Assembly (NCBI GenBank): GCA_019241525.1
Contig: JAFAWY010000033.1
Span: forward strand, 1-43,348
Source of the DNA: Pseudonocardiales bacterium
GTDB taxonomy: Bacteria; Actinomycetota; Actinomycetes; Mycobacteriales; Pseudonocardiaceae
Length of the DNA stretch: 43,348 nt
Direction: 5' to 3'
Shown piece by piece: positions 36,255 through 43,034 of the stretch. Within the stretch, counting starts at the first letter, position 1. Every line of letters starts with the position of its first letter. Under the pieces are notes generated by a model. It was not told where the DNA came from and did no database searches. It worked only from the letters and a program-made list of their open reading frames with translations. The position numbers and the translations under genes were made by a program.

Positions 36255-37355
36255 GTGAGCCTGACCCTCGGGATCGTCGGGTTGCCCAATGTGGGCAAGT
36301 CGACCTTATTCAACGCGCTGACCAGGAACGACGTTCTTGCCGCGAACTACGCGTTCGCCACCATCGAACCCAACGTTGGTGTGGTGCCGCTGCCTGATGA
36401 GCGGTTGACGGTGCTCGCTGAGATGTTCGGCAGTGCCAGGGTGGTGCCGGCGACCGTGTCGTTCGTCGACATCGCCGGAATCGTTTCCGGTGCTTCGGAA
36501 GGCGCAGGATTGGGCAACAAGTTCCTCGCCCACATCCGCGAAGCCAATGCCATCTGCCAGGTCGTGCGGGTCTTCGACGATCCAGACGTGCTGCACGTTG
36601 AGGGCCGGGTCGATCCAGCCGACGACATCGCCACCGTCGAGACCGAACTGGTACTGGCAGATCTGCAGACCCTGGACCGTGCGCTGACCCGGTTGGAGAA
36701 AGAGGCTCGTACCAACCCTAGGCAACGTCGTGCCGCGCTGATCGCTGCTCAGGCCGCCAGGCAGGTGCTCGACAGTGGACGCACCTTGTTCGCGGCCCGT
36801 GCGGAGCTGGACCTCACCCCGCTAGCCGAACTCAGCTTGCTGACCAGTAAACCATTCTTGTATGTCTTCAACGCAGACGAGGGCGTGCTCACCGACCCGG
36901 AACGGCAGGCCGAATTGTGCAAGCTGGTCGATCCGGCCGATGCGGTGTTCTTGGACGCCAAGGTCGAGGCTGAGCTGCTCGAACTGGACCCCGCATCGGC
37001 TCGCGAGTTGTTGGACTCGATCGGCCAGCCCGAACCAGGCCTGCACGCCCTGGCCCGTGCCGGGTTCCACACCTTGGGACTGCAGAGCTTCCTCACCGCC
37101 GGGCCGAAGGAGGCGCGAGCATGGACGATCCGGGCCGGTGCTACGGCCGTCGAAGCTGCCGGAGTAATTCACAGCGATTTCCAGCGGGGCTTTATCAAGG
37201 CTGAAATCGTGTCCTATGACGATCTCGTCGCCGCCGGTTCGATGGCCGCCGCTCGGGCCGCAGGCAAGATCCGGATGGAGGGTAGGGACTACATTATGGC
37301 CGATGGGGACATAGTCGAGTTCCGTACTGGACTAACCTCTAGCTCCAACAAGTAG
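36255..37355 (+). CDS. ychF: Redox-regulated ATPase YchF
   Basis: 366 residues from a GTG with GAGGG upstream. An Obg-related P-loop protein: G1 GLPNVGKST (9-17), FVDIAGIVSGASEGAGLGNKFL (G3), YVFNADEGV in place of NKxD, which is the hallmark of ATP preference, and a C-terminal TGS domain (AWTIRAGATAVEAAGVIHSDFQRGFIKAEIVSYDDL). It binds ribosomes and responds to oxidative state. Matches Rv1112 and marks the end of the conserved block. Confidence 0.96.
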   Translation: MSLTLGIVGLPNVGKSTLFNALTRNDVLAANYAFATIEPNVGVVPLPDERLTVLAEMFGSARVVPATVSFVDIAGIVSGASEGAGLGNKFLAHIREANAICQVVRVFDDPDVLHVEGRVDPADDIATVETELVLADLQTLDRALTRLEKEARTNPRQRRAALIAAQAARQVLDSGRTLFAARAELDLTPLAELSLLTSKPFLYVFNADEGVLTDPERQAELCKLVDPADAVFLDAKVEAELLELDPASARELLDSIGQPEPGLHALARAGFHTLGLQSFLTAGPKEARAWTIRAGATAVEAAGVIHSDFQRGFIKAEIVSYDDLVAAGSMAAARAAGKIRMEGRDYIMADGDIVEFRTGLTSSSNK

Positions 37356-38779: not shown

Positions 38780-38807
38780 TTGACAGTAGTAATCGTCGCA
38801 CTACGAT
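38780..38807 (+). promoter_or_regulatory. Sigma-70-type promoter toward the peptide gene
   Basis: TTGACA (38780-38785), 16-base spacer, TACGAT (38802-38807). The -35 is perfect and the -10 keeps the TAxxxT frame, making it the best housekeeping-type promoter in the window. It points to the precursor gene at 39045, giving a leader of about 230 bases that includes a 16-codon open frame from 38830 (MAFARFLSERRKSRPR) and the palindrome at 38929. Confidence 0.55.
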
Positions 38808-38943: not shown

Positions 38944-39044
38944 CAAGCCGACTGCTTCGGTCACAATAAGTGATCCCCAAGTGGGAGACAGACCTCAAAG
39001 AAGCTCCACCCGCTACGGGATCGTGCTTCGAGAAAGGAGAAAGA

Positions 39045-39242
39045 ATGATGTCTGACGCATTGAGTTTCTCCGAGATCGACGGCCAGCAGGCGGAGCTGCT
39101 GCCCGACCGTGCCGTCATGCAGACAAGTTTGCTTGACTCCATCTTCAGCTTGGTTAACAGCATCTTTGGGCTCGTCGGCCTCCCTGTCACCATCGGCTCC
39201 ACCACCACCAGCACAACCACCACCGGCACCGGCACCGGCTAA
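39045..39242 (+). CDS. Putative ribosomal peptide precursor, ELLPDR-type leader
   Basis: 65 residues; ATG-ATG after AAAGGAGAAAGA, a strong ribosome-binding site. Three parts are visible: an acidic leader-like stretch (LSFSEIDGQQAELLPDRAVM, residues 6-25), a hydrophobic helix (LLDSIFSLVNSIFGLVGLPV, 29-48), and a low-complexity tail of only Ser, Thr and Gly (GSTTTSTTTTGTGTG, 51-65). No signal peptide or cysteine. I recall short actinobacterial peptides with an ExxELLPxR motif encoded next to membrane metalloproteases and modification enzymes; this match is from memory. The next gene is an M50-type protease. The natural reading is a leader recognised by a partner protein and a cleaved or modified C-terminal part. 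It could also be a small membrane peptide. An upstream frame start at 38970 lacks a ribosome-binding site. Confidence 0.65.
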   Translation: MMSDALSFSEIDGQQAELLPDRAVMQTSLLDSIFSLVNSIFGLVGLPVTIGSTTTSTTTTGTGTG

Positions 39243-39546
39243 GGCGGCGACAAAAGCCGCAGAAGTCAACGTGCGGGATTGGTCGATCACGCGGTTGCTC
39301 AGTGGTTGGTGCAACCAACGAAACGGCACTGGCGTGGCGGTTGGCAGCCTCCGGCGCGCGGTAATCGAGCGACCGGTCGCTGAGTTGAGCGGTGCCGTAA
39401 AGGGCGATCTCCATGATTGTGCCCTGCGCGAGGGTTGAGCGGGGTGGCTGGCCCGGCGTTGGCCACCCCGGTCACCACATTGCGTATTCCGCTGTGGAAA
39501 ATCTGGCAATCGCCGAGTCAGGGGAGGCGTCATCGATACCGAGTAT
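39243..39546 (+). promoter_or_regulatory. Inter-gene region with attenuator-like hairpin
   Basis: CGGGGTGGC (39440-39448) pairs perfectly with GCCACCCCG (39462-39470), without a U-tract, between the precursor and the protease. It may lower read-through so that the peptide exceeds its protease. A 55-codon frame from the GTG at 39271 to 39438 has fair codon use but no motif and no ribosome-binding site. GGGGAGG at 39521-39527 is the nearest ribosome-binding-like site to the protease and lies 19 bases from its GTG. Confidence 0.45.
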
Positions 39547-40899
39547 GTGGCGGTCGAGCCTGAGTTAGCGGATGCAGTCGCGGGTGTGGTACCGCGGTTG
39601 ACGCCGGGTGTTGAACTGATCGGAGAATATCAGGGATCGGGTTTTCAGCAGCCCCGATTTCTTGTGCGTCGGGCTGACGGCCAGGTTATTCAGTTGTCGC
39701 GGTTGTTGTATCTGTTGACGACCGCGGTGGACGGTCAGCGGGATCTGGTGCAGGTGGCGGCCACAGTCAGCGAACAGTTCGGTCGGGTGGTGTTGGCCCC
39801 GCAGGTGTTGTATCTGATCGACAACCGGCTGCGGCCAGTGGGGCTGGTGGTAGCCGATCCGCAGGCCGGCACCGAGGCACCAGCGAAGATCAAAAAGACG
39901 TCCGATCCGTTGCTGGCATTGAAGTTCCGGGTAGCAGTGATACCCAAGCGGGCGGTCTGGCGGATCGGCGGAGTGTTCGTCCCACTGTTCTGGCCGCCGG
40001 TGATCTTAGCCGCAGTGACCGGATTCATCGGTCTTGACGGGCTGCTACTCGCCCGGGGTGCTCTAGGGCAGACGGCGCCCAGCACGCTGGCGTTGGTGTA
40101 CCAGCCGACGTCGACGCTGTGGGTGCTGGCGATGATTCTGGCTTCTGCGGCGTTTCACGAATGCGGCCATGTCACCGCTTGCCGCTATGGTGGCGCTACC
40201 CCCGGCGTCATGGGTTTCGGTGTGTATCTGGTGTGGCCGACGTTCTATAGCATCGTCACCGACTCCTACCGACTCAATCGGATCGGGCGGCTGCGCACCG
40301 ATCTTGGAGGCGTGTATTTCAACGCGGTGTCCATCGCTGGGATGAGCCTGGTCTATCTGGGCACAAAAGCCCCTTGGCTCCTGGTCGCGATCGTGGCGCT
40401 GCATATCGAGACCGCGATGCAGTTTTTGCCCATCGTTCGTATGGACGGCTACTACATCCTCAGCGACCTGGTCGGCGTGCCCGATTTGTTCAGCCGGATG
40501 GGGCCGGTACTGAAAAGCATGATCCCCGGACAATCGGCCCATCCCCGGGTGACCGAACTTAAACCCTGGGTCCGTCGAACAATCACCCTCTGGGTCGCGA
40601 TCGTGGTACCTACCTTGCTCTACTGGACGATCAGACTCGTGATCGGCGTACCTCGGGTATTACCGGTGGCATACACCAAACTGCTCGAATTAAGCCACGC
40701 AACCAGCGCAGCGGCAGCAGCCGGAAACATCCCCAAGACCACCGTGGACATAGTCCAAGTCGTCTTGTTATTACTACCCTGGACCGGGCTGCTACTGCTA
40801 CTGGGCAGACTAGCGCAAAGACCAGCGCGGCTAATACTGGCTCACTGGAGTACGGCCCAATCACAGGCTAAACGACCCTTATCACCAACCCGATCCTGA
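39547..40899 (+). CDS. M50-type zinc membrane protease with PqqD-like N-terminus
   Basis: 450 residues. Residues 15-100 ([46 protein letters not shown] ... [13 protein letters not shown]) have the order of a PqqD-like winged-helix peptide recognition element: small beta wing, 'hLL..hDG..s..eia..h' helix pair. From 140 on are six or so membrane helices. The zinc site is H204-E205-C-G-H208 in [18 protein letters not shown], with third ligand D300 in [18 protein letters not shown], as in site-2-protease-like putative peptide zinc metalloproteases. It should cut within or near the membrane; the peptide encoded just upstream is the obvious substrate. The only canonical start is GTG 39547, with a poorly placed ribosome-binding site; a rare start closer to GGGGAGG is conceivable. 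No transporter or other modifying enzyme is adjacent. Confidence 0.75.
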
Positions 40900-40994: not shown

Positions 40995-42107
40995 ATGGCT
41001 TCGGACATGGACTCGGCTGACCAGGATGTCCCGGGGGGCACGGATCTGATCGCCGATGAGGTTGACAAGCTTGGGATCGAGGCGCAGGAGCCAGACGGTG
41101 TCAGCGACTCCGACCCGCAGCACCTCGTCTGGAATCGACAGCAGTCCCCGGCGTCGCGCCACCACCACCACAACGCCGAACATGGCGGCTCGGCAGACGC
41201 GGTCAGTGTCTATTTCCGGCGGATCGGCCGGGTCGCGTTGCTCAGAGCCCAGCACGAGGTGGAGTTGGCCCAGCGCATCGAGGCCGGGTTGTATGCCGCT
41301 GAGTTGCTGCGTCGGGCCCAGCAGTCCACCCACAACGTGTCCCCGCAGCGGTGTCGGGATCTGCGCTGGATTGTCCGCGAGGGCCAGCAGGCCAAAACCC
41401 ACCTGGTGGAGGCCAACCTGCGCCTGGTGGTGGCGATCGCCAAACGCTATACCGGTCTGGGCCTTCCCTTGTCCGACCTCATTCAGGAAGGCAATCTCGG
41501 CCTCATCCACGCGGTGGAAAAGTTCGACTACGCCAAGGGCTACAAGTTGTCCACTTACGCTACGTGGTGGATCCGCCAAGCCATCGCTCGGGCGCTGGCC
41601 GAGCAGGTCCGCACCATCCACATCCCCGTGCACGTCATCGAGGTGATCAACAAACTGGGTCGCGTCCAGCGCGAGTTGCTCCAAGATCTCGGGCGCGAGC
41701 CCACCCCTGACGAACTCGCCAAGGAAATGGACCTCCCCCCAGACAAGGTGGTCGAACTCCAGCACTACGCCCAGGAACCTCTCTCCCTGGATCAGATCAT
41801 CGGCAACGAAGATGACCTCACACTCGGCGACCTGATCGAAGACCCCCACGCCACGGCGGCCATCGACACCGTCACGTATATACAGCTGCAAGATCAATTG
41901 AAGTCTGTGCTGGCCACGTTGTCCGAGCTCGAAGCCAGCGTCGTGCGGCTGCGCTTTGGGCTCACCGACGGCCATCCCCACAGCCTGGAGGAAATCAGCC
42001 AAATCCACGCCGTCACCCGCGAACACATCCGACAAATCCATATCAAGACCATGGCCAAGCTACGCCGCCACTTCCGATCCCAACTTCTCCGAGACTACCT
42101 CGACTGA
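40995..42107 (+). CDS. Sigma-70 family RNA polymerase sigma factor (group 2-like)
   Basis: 370 residues. Region 1.1 is replaced by a 65-residue Asp/His-rich N-terminus with HHHHN (56-60). Region 1.2 ([30 protein letters not shown]), region 2 ([30 protein letters not shown] ... [10 protein letters not shown]), region 3 ([30 protein letters not shown]) and region 4 are complete. In region 4.2 the -35 recognition helix reads [18 protein letters not shown] instead of TRERIRQIESKT; the R, E and Q that contact the -35 box in E. coli sigma-70 remain. It is related to HrdB/SigB-type factors, is unlikely to be the principal one because of the short N-terminus, and may direct the neighbouring genes. 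An anti-sigma-like gene lies downstream. Confidence 0.9.
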
Positions 42108-42491: not shown

Positions 42492-43034
42492 ATGCCTACT
42501 CCCAGCGAAACCATCATTTCCCCCTCACGAACAGCCCGCACCCGCGTGCGCGAAACACAGATAACGCCGCTGGATATCAGCGTGCGCGCCGACACCTCCC
42601 ACGCCTGGCAATCGCGGATCGCCTTGCGGCAATGGCTGCATACCACACGAGTGGCTCCCGCACTCGCCGACAACCTGGCATTAGCTGGCTATGAAGCGTT
42701 GGCCAACGTGGTCGAACATGCCTACCCACCCGATCACCCGCATCCGACGATGCGACTCCAGGCTCAAATGTCTGTCCCCATGCTGCGGATCACCATCACC
42801 GACCACGGTCGATGGCGCTCACCCACCCAGAATGCAGATGACCGCAGCCTCGGCCTGGCGATCATGCGTGCGGTGACGACTTTCCCCCACGTGATACGCC
42901 ACACCCACGGCACCACGGTGGTTCTGTTCGCCGGGCTCGCTATCCGGCGCTCCCGCGGCCGCATCATGCTGCCACCAGCATACGCAAGTAGATGTTCGAC
43001 AGATTCGGTATCGCGGCAAGAGAAGCATTATTAG
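42492..43034 (+). CDS. RsbW-like anti-sigma factor / ATPase
   Basis: 180 residues. A GHKL ATPase of the HATPase_c_2 class: N-box EALANVVEHAY (68-78, N72), D104 and G106 (ITDHGRWRS), SLGLAIM (119-125), and HGTTVVLF (139-146). These proteins bind sigma factors or phosphorylate STAS antagonists. The sigma factor gene lies 385 bp upstream, but anti-sigma factors of this class normally target SigF/SigB-type factors rather than HrdB-like ones, so the pairing is only suggested. The last 25 residues are not conserved-looking. A second HATPase, fused to STAS, is at 6055-6903. Confidence 0.8.
   Translation: MPTPSETIISPSRTARTRVRETQITPLDISVRADTSHAWQSRIALRQWLHTTRVAPALADNLALAGYEALANVVEHAYPPDHPHPTMRLQAQMSVPMLRITITDHGRWRSPTQNADDRSLGLAIMRAVTTFPHVIRHTHGTTVVLFAGLAIRRSRGRIMLPPAYASRCSTDSVSRQEKHY

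Follow-up and report, generated by a model that had tools for sequence, protein, structure and literature searches.

Does the short peptide gene that precedes a membrane zinc protease gene in this actinobacterial DNA encode a real substrate of that protease, and if so, how general is the pairing and what is released? The question is raised by the 43,348-nt stretch analysed here (the window; Pseudonocardiales bacterium, contig JAFAWY010000033.1), for which a preliminary description had proposed a very small processing system: a peptide precursor with an ELLPDR leader and an M50 protease. We favour, with a probability of roughly three in four, the reading that many small, probably extracytoplasmic proteins have a common leader, which an intramembrane protease guided by an RRE takes off. 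The pair (Table 1) lies between ychF (36255-37355) upstream and a sigma-70 gene (40995-42107) downstream, in a genome of 4.7 Mb; when the list of open reading frames from ychF to the sigma-70 gene was read by eye, no dehydratase, cyclase, radical-SAM enzyme or transporter was recognised, in agreement with the preliminary description.

Table 1. Features of the precursor and protease locus, in window positions.
Feature	Position	Strand	Detail	Evidence
Promoter-like site TTGACA-16-TACGAT	38780..38807	+	weak evidence	consensus scan
Shine-Dalgarno AAGGAG	39034..39039	+	8 nt 5' of second ATG (39048)	read from sequence
Precursor gene	39045..39242	+	65 codons from first ATG; 64 from likelier ATG 39048	ORF, codon conservation, profile match
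Leader, residues 1-25 (inferred end)	39045..39119	+	ends ELLPDRAVM	profile of 130 precursors and 14 own-genome copies
Core, residues 26-65	39120..39239	+	without relative in 10 other genus genomes searched	
Amphipathic-helix-like stretch	39123..39188	+	TSLLDSIFSLVNSIFGLVGLPV	hydrophobic moment
Gly/Ser/Thr-only tail, residues 51-65	39195..39239	+		read from translation
GC-rich hairpin in gap between the two genes	39441..39469	+		gap fold against shuffles
RRE-M50 intramembrane zinc protease gene	39547..40899	+	GTG, start uncertain	NF041824 partial score; tree
PqqD/RRE-like N-terminal domain	39592..39894	+		hhalign profile-profile comparison
HExxH zinc site	40156..40170	+	HECGH, residues 204-208	H204, E205, H208 invariant in 53/53
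MDG, residues 299-301	40441..40449	+	D300, presumed third zinc ligand	D300 invariant in 53/53

The precursor frame translates to MMSDALSFSEIDGQQAELLPDRAVMQTSLLDSIFSLVNSIFGLVGLPVTIGSTTTSTTTTGTGTG (65 residues). Its second ATG, 8 nt after AAGGAG (a good ribosome-binding site, as had been claimed), is the likelier start: of the relatives within this genome, the majority start with MSD or with M, two residues and AL. Upstream, the consensus scan returned one promoter-like site against a shuffle mean of 0.2. The leader would end at the point where conservation falls off. Against a leader profile, which contains the window sequence itself, the window precursor scores 61.5 bits (E 4.8e-16), and its core (query residues 25-65) was matched in 0/10 of the other genus genomes at E 1; judged by sequence comparison, the leader is conserved and the core is not. 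Within the core, the first 18 residues of the helix-like stretch have a hydrophobic moment of 0.45 at 100 degrees, reached by 1 of 5000 shuffles (0.0002), a value to be read in the knowledge that the segment was picked after inspection. The tail is indeed restricted to Ser, Thr and Gly, from residue 51 onward, and the last residue is Gly.

A peptide frame lacking codon-level conservation was one of the two outcomes that the preliminary description had named as refuting it. Over a set of 62 different precursor genes, drawn from Pseudonocardiales loci and from the genus, the leader has a pN/pS of 0.27, against 1.08 and 2.38 in the shifted frames. Because these genes were chosen via the leader motif itself, the ratio was computed again with the motif's 8 codons removed, giving 0.30 (shifted frames 1.25 and 1.53). 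The ratio for the core is 0.43 in 33 glycine-rich relatives. The leader frame is conserved at the codon level, contrary to that outcome.

The leader defines a larger family, with the consensus L[ST]xxELxxQxxE.LPx[RK]xx[ML]SL over 130 distinct precursors; P is found in 130 of these, L in 129, R in 112 and K in 18, counts that are partly fixed by the search motif. The ELLPDR noted in the preliminary description is one variant of this leader; the forms ELLPAR, ELPDR and LPDKE are commoner. ELLPAR leaders are found in the window clade, ELPDRExMS-like leaders in Rubrobacteraceae, Thermoleophilia and Chloroflexi MAGs, and ALPDKEVMS-like leaders in internally repeated precursors of ~200-335 residues; further types exist. 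Good ribosome-binding sites (5 or 6) precede 109/130 precursors, a proportion biased upward by the choice of start codons partly on Shine-Dalgarno score. Nine precursors searched in NCBIfam and eight in Pfam gave no match at curated cut-off, the RefSeq records of two Streptomyces plasmids annotate precursor and protease both as 'hypothetical protein', and a literature search, in which subscription journals were thinly covered, found no paper on the LPxR leader or on leader-M50 pairing. One plasmid-encoded pair is that of Streptomyces changanensis (WP_058944397.1 with WP_257375597.1).

The other refuting outcome named was a lack of conserved co-occurrence in relatives, and here too the opposite was found: the two genes do co-occur. 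M50 relatives came from 28 loci in species genomes and from 11/11 genomes of the genus, 45/298 of the order and 25/396 of the phylum, the window's genome included. The resulting 86 loci, all with usable upstream DNA, take in the window, one duplicate (L008 and L011, the same gene on contig C140) and close strains, and their 67 full-length proteases form 53 clusters at 80% identity. An ORF with the motif LPx[RK]xx[hydrophobic] lies upstream on the same strand, within at most 1.65 kb, at 80/86 M50 loci (132 ORFs), against 5 loci for the antisense control placement, 2 for downstream sense and 1 for downstream antisense. This motif was widened post hoc, the first version having overlooked K-type and very short leaders; with the stricter first motif the counts over the 86 loci are 56 upstream, 4 antisense, 3 downstream and 0 downstream antisense. 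Among the six misses, two have their precursors on the opposite strand (L092, L096) and three have motif variants (L098, L108, L113), while at the M50 locus L097 no precursor was seen. The same scan upstream of daptide-type and other M50 genes gave 0/20. Together with the conserved leader frame, the upstream motif ORFs bear out the central claim of the preliminary description, a real precursor with a leader next to an M50 protease.

At the level of whole genomes, leader and M50 occur together in 39 of the 298 genomes of the order, M50 only in 6, leader only in 1 (G052, E 0.006) and neither in 252; the two 298-genome surveys were taken as the same genome set from their equal number and handles. 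The broad leader profile used here matches 40/298 genomes, 39 of them within the 45 M50-bearing ones. Of 50 representative leaders, 49 went into it (a row that looked like a chance match was omitted), partly from genomes later searched, so the informative part of the comparison is the near absence of matches in the 253 M50-negative genomes. In five of the M50-only genomes (G162, G208, G271, G294, G302) short FExQ..LLPARTT precursors are visible; G103 is the sixth.

The two genes are not a closed unit. The window's genome has 18 leader-profile matches over several contigs and 2 proteases, and its second M50, on C140, is 63% identical to the window protease and has five leader ORFs beside it. 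In each of the 11 genus genomes the leader matches (5-26) outnumber the protease matches (1-3), which makes it probable that a single protease serves many precursors. The notion of a very small system survives in so far as no tailoring enzyme or transporter was recognised, mostly by eye, among the neighbour families recurring in 38 loci, but a stand-alone two-gene unit it is not. Another contig, C102 (L012, 6624-12700), carries six leader ORFs on both strands, including ones with hydrophobic and Cys-containing cores; no M50 of the LPxR-type family was found on this contig, and pairing there is at genome level only.

The protease frame encodes 450 residues from its GTG, the nearest AGGGGAGG lying ~19 nt upstream of it, which leaves the exact start uncertain. 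Its score against the Pfam model PF02163 is 14.4 bits, below the cut-off of 27.2, and it has the features of an M50/site-2 protease: HExxH, a distal Asp and multiple transmembrane segments (hydrophobic segments were counted in relatives). The HExxH and MDG sites had been reported intact, and H204, E205, H208 and D300 are invariant in 53/53 aligned family proteases. Among protease relatives with a titled record, the closest belong to Pseudonocardiales and Pseudonocardiaceae MAGs (67-68% identity). The 304-nt gap between precursor and protease folds with a z of -2.72, and 0/100 shuffles are equally stable; the hairpin within it is possibly an attenuator, perhaps setting the ratio of precursor to protease.

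Absent from the preliminary description was an RRE-like domain at the protease N-terminus. When a profile of the RRE stretch (built on 37 of 52 such stretches) was compared by hhalign with a profile of 16 PqqD-family domains chosen from PqqD loci, the match reached 93% (E 3.4e-7, residues ~16-105); none of 30 column-shuffled profiles exceeded 2.8%, and the reversed profile gave 0.12%. Single-sequence support from Pfam is weaker: 4/37 members match PqqD, the best at E 0.023, and one family member (genome G019) is just at the PqqD cut-off (23.4 of 23.4 bits). Against PDB sequences the RRE gave 3g2b at E 0.05, ranked below unrelated TAB1 matches. Over the 11 genus genomes, 20/21 matches of the RRE profile are M50s or M50 fragments. 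Profile comparison thus suggests that the protease N-terminus is PqqD/RRE-like, and with the conserved leader also present, the pair has both elements of an RRE-guided precursor system in the broad sense, leader binding being predicted. A further RRE-profile match, with an internal stop, lies outside any M50 found in its genome (G008:C13:8323-8556) and is perhaps a decayed copy. The window's genome also contains a strong PqqD-family match (L166, G000:C84:66253-66450), which we take to be of the kind seen in lasso-peptide clusters.

What the proteases would release is best judged from the cores. At least four GGx units occur in 49 of the 130 cores, and an Ala/Asn pattern such as AANVL in 62; net charge is negative in 96, neutral in 21 and positive in 13. 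Such a composition is unlike that of the usual cationic antimicrobials and points to extracellular material, and most family cores, being Gly- or Ala/Asn-rich and acidic, would better fit surface or matrix material. Some long precursors upstream of M50 genes (L081, L088, L103 and similar; ~200-335 residues) have fibre-protein-like repeats, with two tandem units of NANVAAPIDAAVxANVxSxxSxAxAxxxQ. Cys is present in 19/130 cores, in even number in 16/19. The C-terminal extension of the protease, absent in the window, varies by lineage: L029 and L119 have many extra hydrophobic segments there, and in L120 and L121 it is a domain with two CxxC motifs. The latter also occurs as a separate nearby ORF in L031 (3085-4011), L034 (5530-6237), L035 and L036, with N-termini that look by eye like secretion signals in L031 and L034; it matched no Pfam or NCBIfam family. 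DUF2807 is likewise either fused to the protease (L025 by Pfam, L018 by resemblance) or encoded next door (L020 and L028 by Pfam, C140 by reading). The even Cys counts and the DUF2807 and CxxC partners are hints of an extracytoplasmic role. In the 38 neighbourhoods (clustered with antisense ORFs included; the top 30 components were read, then all with at least two loci outside the genus set), the clades have a single family in common, that of the protease. In Streptomyces physcomitrii (L041) an ABC-type ORF lies upstream of the precursor, and a transporter may be involved in some species.

From these elements we propose the following mechanism. The first ~25 residues of the precursor would form the leader, L[ST]xxELxxQxxELLPx[RK]xx[LM]S; the PqqD-like RRE domain of the protease would bind it on the cytoplasmic side, and the intramembrane M50 zinc site would cut near its end, around LPxRxx[LM]S, so that the core is freed into the membrane or to its far side. 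Many precursors, scattered over the genome, would share one or a few proteases, the leader being kept while the core diversifies. The core would probably be released unmodified or nearly so, because no tailoring enzyme dedicated to the pair was recognised, and would act outside the cytoplasm; a tailoring enzyme may nevertheless be encoded elsewhere in the genome. For the window core, an alternative to surface material is a helix that inserts into the membrane and bears a Ser/Thr/Gly tail. A membrane-active or signalling peptide, as the preliminary description suggested, may thus be conceivable for the window in view of the helix-like stretch, but would suit most cores of the family less well. 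More tentatively, and at well below even odds, LPxR leaders and RRE-M50 proteases might constitute a general non-Sec route in many actinobacteria and some Chloroflexi that releases, and perhaps assembles, diverse low-complexity surface polymers; DUF2807, the CxxC domain and collagen-like linkers would be its extracytoplasmic partners, fused or separate by lineage, and act as anchors or nucleators. If leader removal proceeds as proposed, it would be a case of RRE-guided maturation that has no tailoring of its own, a single intramembrane protease dealing with up to two dozen scattered substrates whose cores have diversified freely behind a common leader; numerous small 'hypothetical' proteins of actinobacteria, including those of cultured Pseudonocardia and Streptomyces, could then be recognised by sequence, and it would make a new route of release or secretion testable.

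Could the pair instead be the leader-removal part of a daptide-like RiPP pathway, its modifying enzymes lying elsewhere in the genome? We consider this unlikely. The daptide_HExxH model NF041824 does match part of the RRE and the M50 domain of the window protease (residues 37-315), and the daptide leader, ELExMEAP, is loosely similar, while the peptides are described as helical (PMC10036551), as the window core may be. The match, however, is of 89.8 bits, far below the cut-off of 300, whereas the two daptide proteases above that cut-off (L139, L140) score 485 and 407 and group apart: in a tree of 47 rows, 37 LPxR-type proteases are separated from these two and eight other M50s with a branch support of 100/100. 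The 37 were taken from the 67 full-length LPxR-type proteases and include L097; a first tree, in which the LPxR rows needed 2 changes, was disturbed by the truncated L143 and the long-branch L158, and both were dropped afterwards. A C-terminal Thr ends only 5/130 precursors. The daptide peptide model NF041808 recognises the peptide that precedes L139 (31.2 bits, cut-off 25) and none of the 9 of 130 LPxR precursors scanned. The daptide RRE-protein model NF041823 is unmatched in the 11 genus genomes, as it is in the positive control, and no enzyme of DapB/C/D/M type was recognised by eye among the families recurring in the 38 neighbourhoods. Daptide membership was rejected on the protease score, the LPx[RK] leader in place of ELExMEAP and the C-terminal residue. 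Another M50 group (L141, L143, L144, L146, L149, L150) scores ~156-180 bits to NF041824 and has no LPxR peptides in the scan; the upstream ORF of its members often ends in a transmembrane segment followed by SVYxxIxRRM.

Still less probable is that the site-2 protease frees a pheromone or signal peptide, with the downstream sigma and anti-sigma-like genes as targets. In other bacteria there are signals that M50 proteases set free, the sigma gene at 40995 is RpoD/SigB-like and is followed by a weakly RsbA-like ORF at 42492 (23.9 bits, cut-off 210), and a family of LuxR-type AAA regulators, of which Pfam identified one member, occurs in 10/38 neighbourhoods, 7 from the genus set and 3 from one other family. 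The cores, however, are long, very variable and present in many copies per genome, and the window sigma protein is unmatched (E < 1e-15) in the other loci compared. Finally, it is very improbable that the window copy, as a paralogue of the multi-copy clusters, is in decay or has lost its function: its leader is among the two most divergent of the 14 in its genome (mean identity 0.57), it stands alone with an unmatched core and its protease start lacks a close Shine-Dalgarno, but both frames are open, the catalytic residues are kept, the window leader has a pN/pS of 0.44 against the remaining leaders and the precursor has a good ribosome-binding site.

How does guided removal of a shared leader, the reading we prefer, compare with known systems? 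Some cores (L112, L114, L116) contain VPIGIAANVC-like stretches, which are, we presume, reminiscent of chaplins; chaplins and actinomycete surface proteins differ in that the window family has the LPxR leader and, by eye, no evident Sec-type signal. The pearlin proteases TglG and TmoG are likewise membrane M50s that act on a ribosomal peptide, according to PMC10885120, but they free a C-terminal residue from a scaffold peptide, and no PEARL ligase was recognised by eye at the window pair. The epipeptide proteases (EpeP, YydH, LiaK) are M50s as well, EpeP being thought to do both cleavage and export of its peptide (PMC10885120); leaders and cores are unlike those of the window family. Membership by protease was rejected, the match to the LiaK/YydH model NF058609 being weak (37.4 bits, cut-off 225), and no radical-SAM epimerase was recognised by eye among recurring neighbours or beside the pair. 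The daptides share with the window family an N-terminal RRE fused to the intramembrane protease (MpaP/DapP) and short, often multi-copy precursors; MpaP is described as an RRE-dependent intramembrane peptidase that takes off the daptide leader (PMC10036551). The window family departs from them in its LPx[RK]xx[LM]S leader, in following no C-terminal Thr rule, in its separate protease group and in the lack of recognised DapB/C/D/M-type enzymes among recurring neighbours. Daptides and epipeptides are, by these comparisons, the nearest known relatives of the LPxR-RRE-M50 system, which appears distinct in combining an RRE-guided leader protease with many scattered substrates and no recognised dedicated tailoring, and which resembles the leader-removal step of both.
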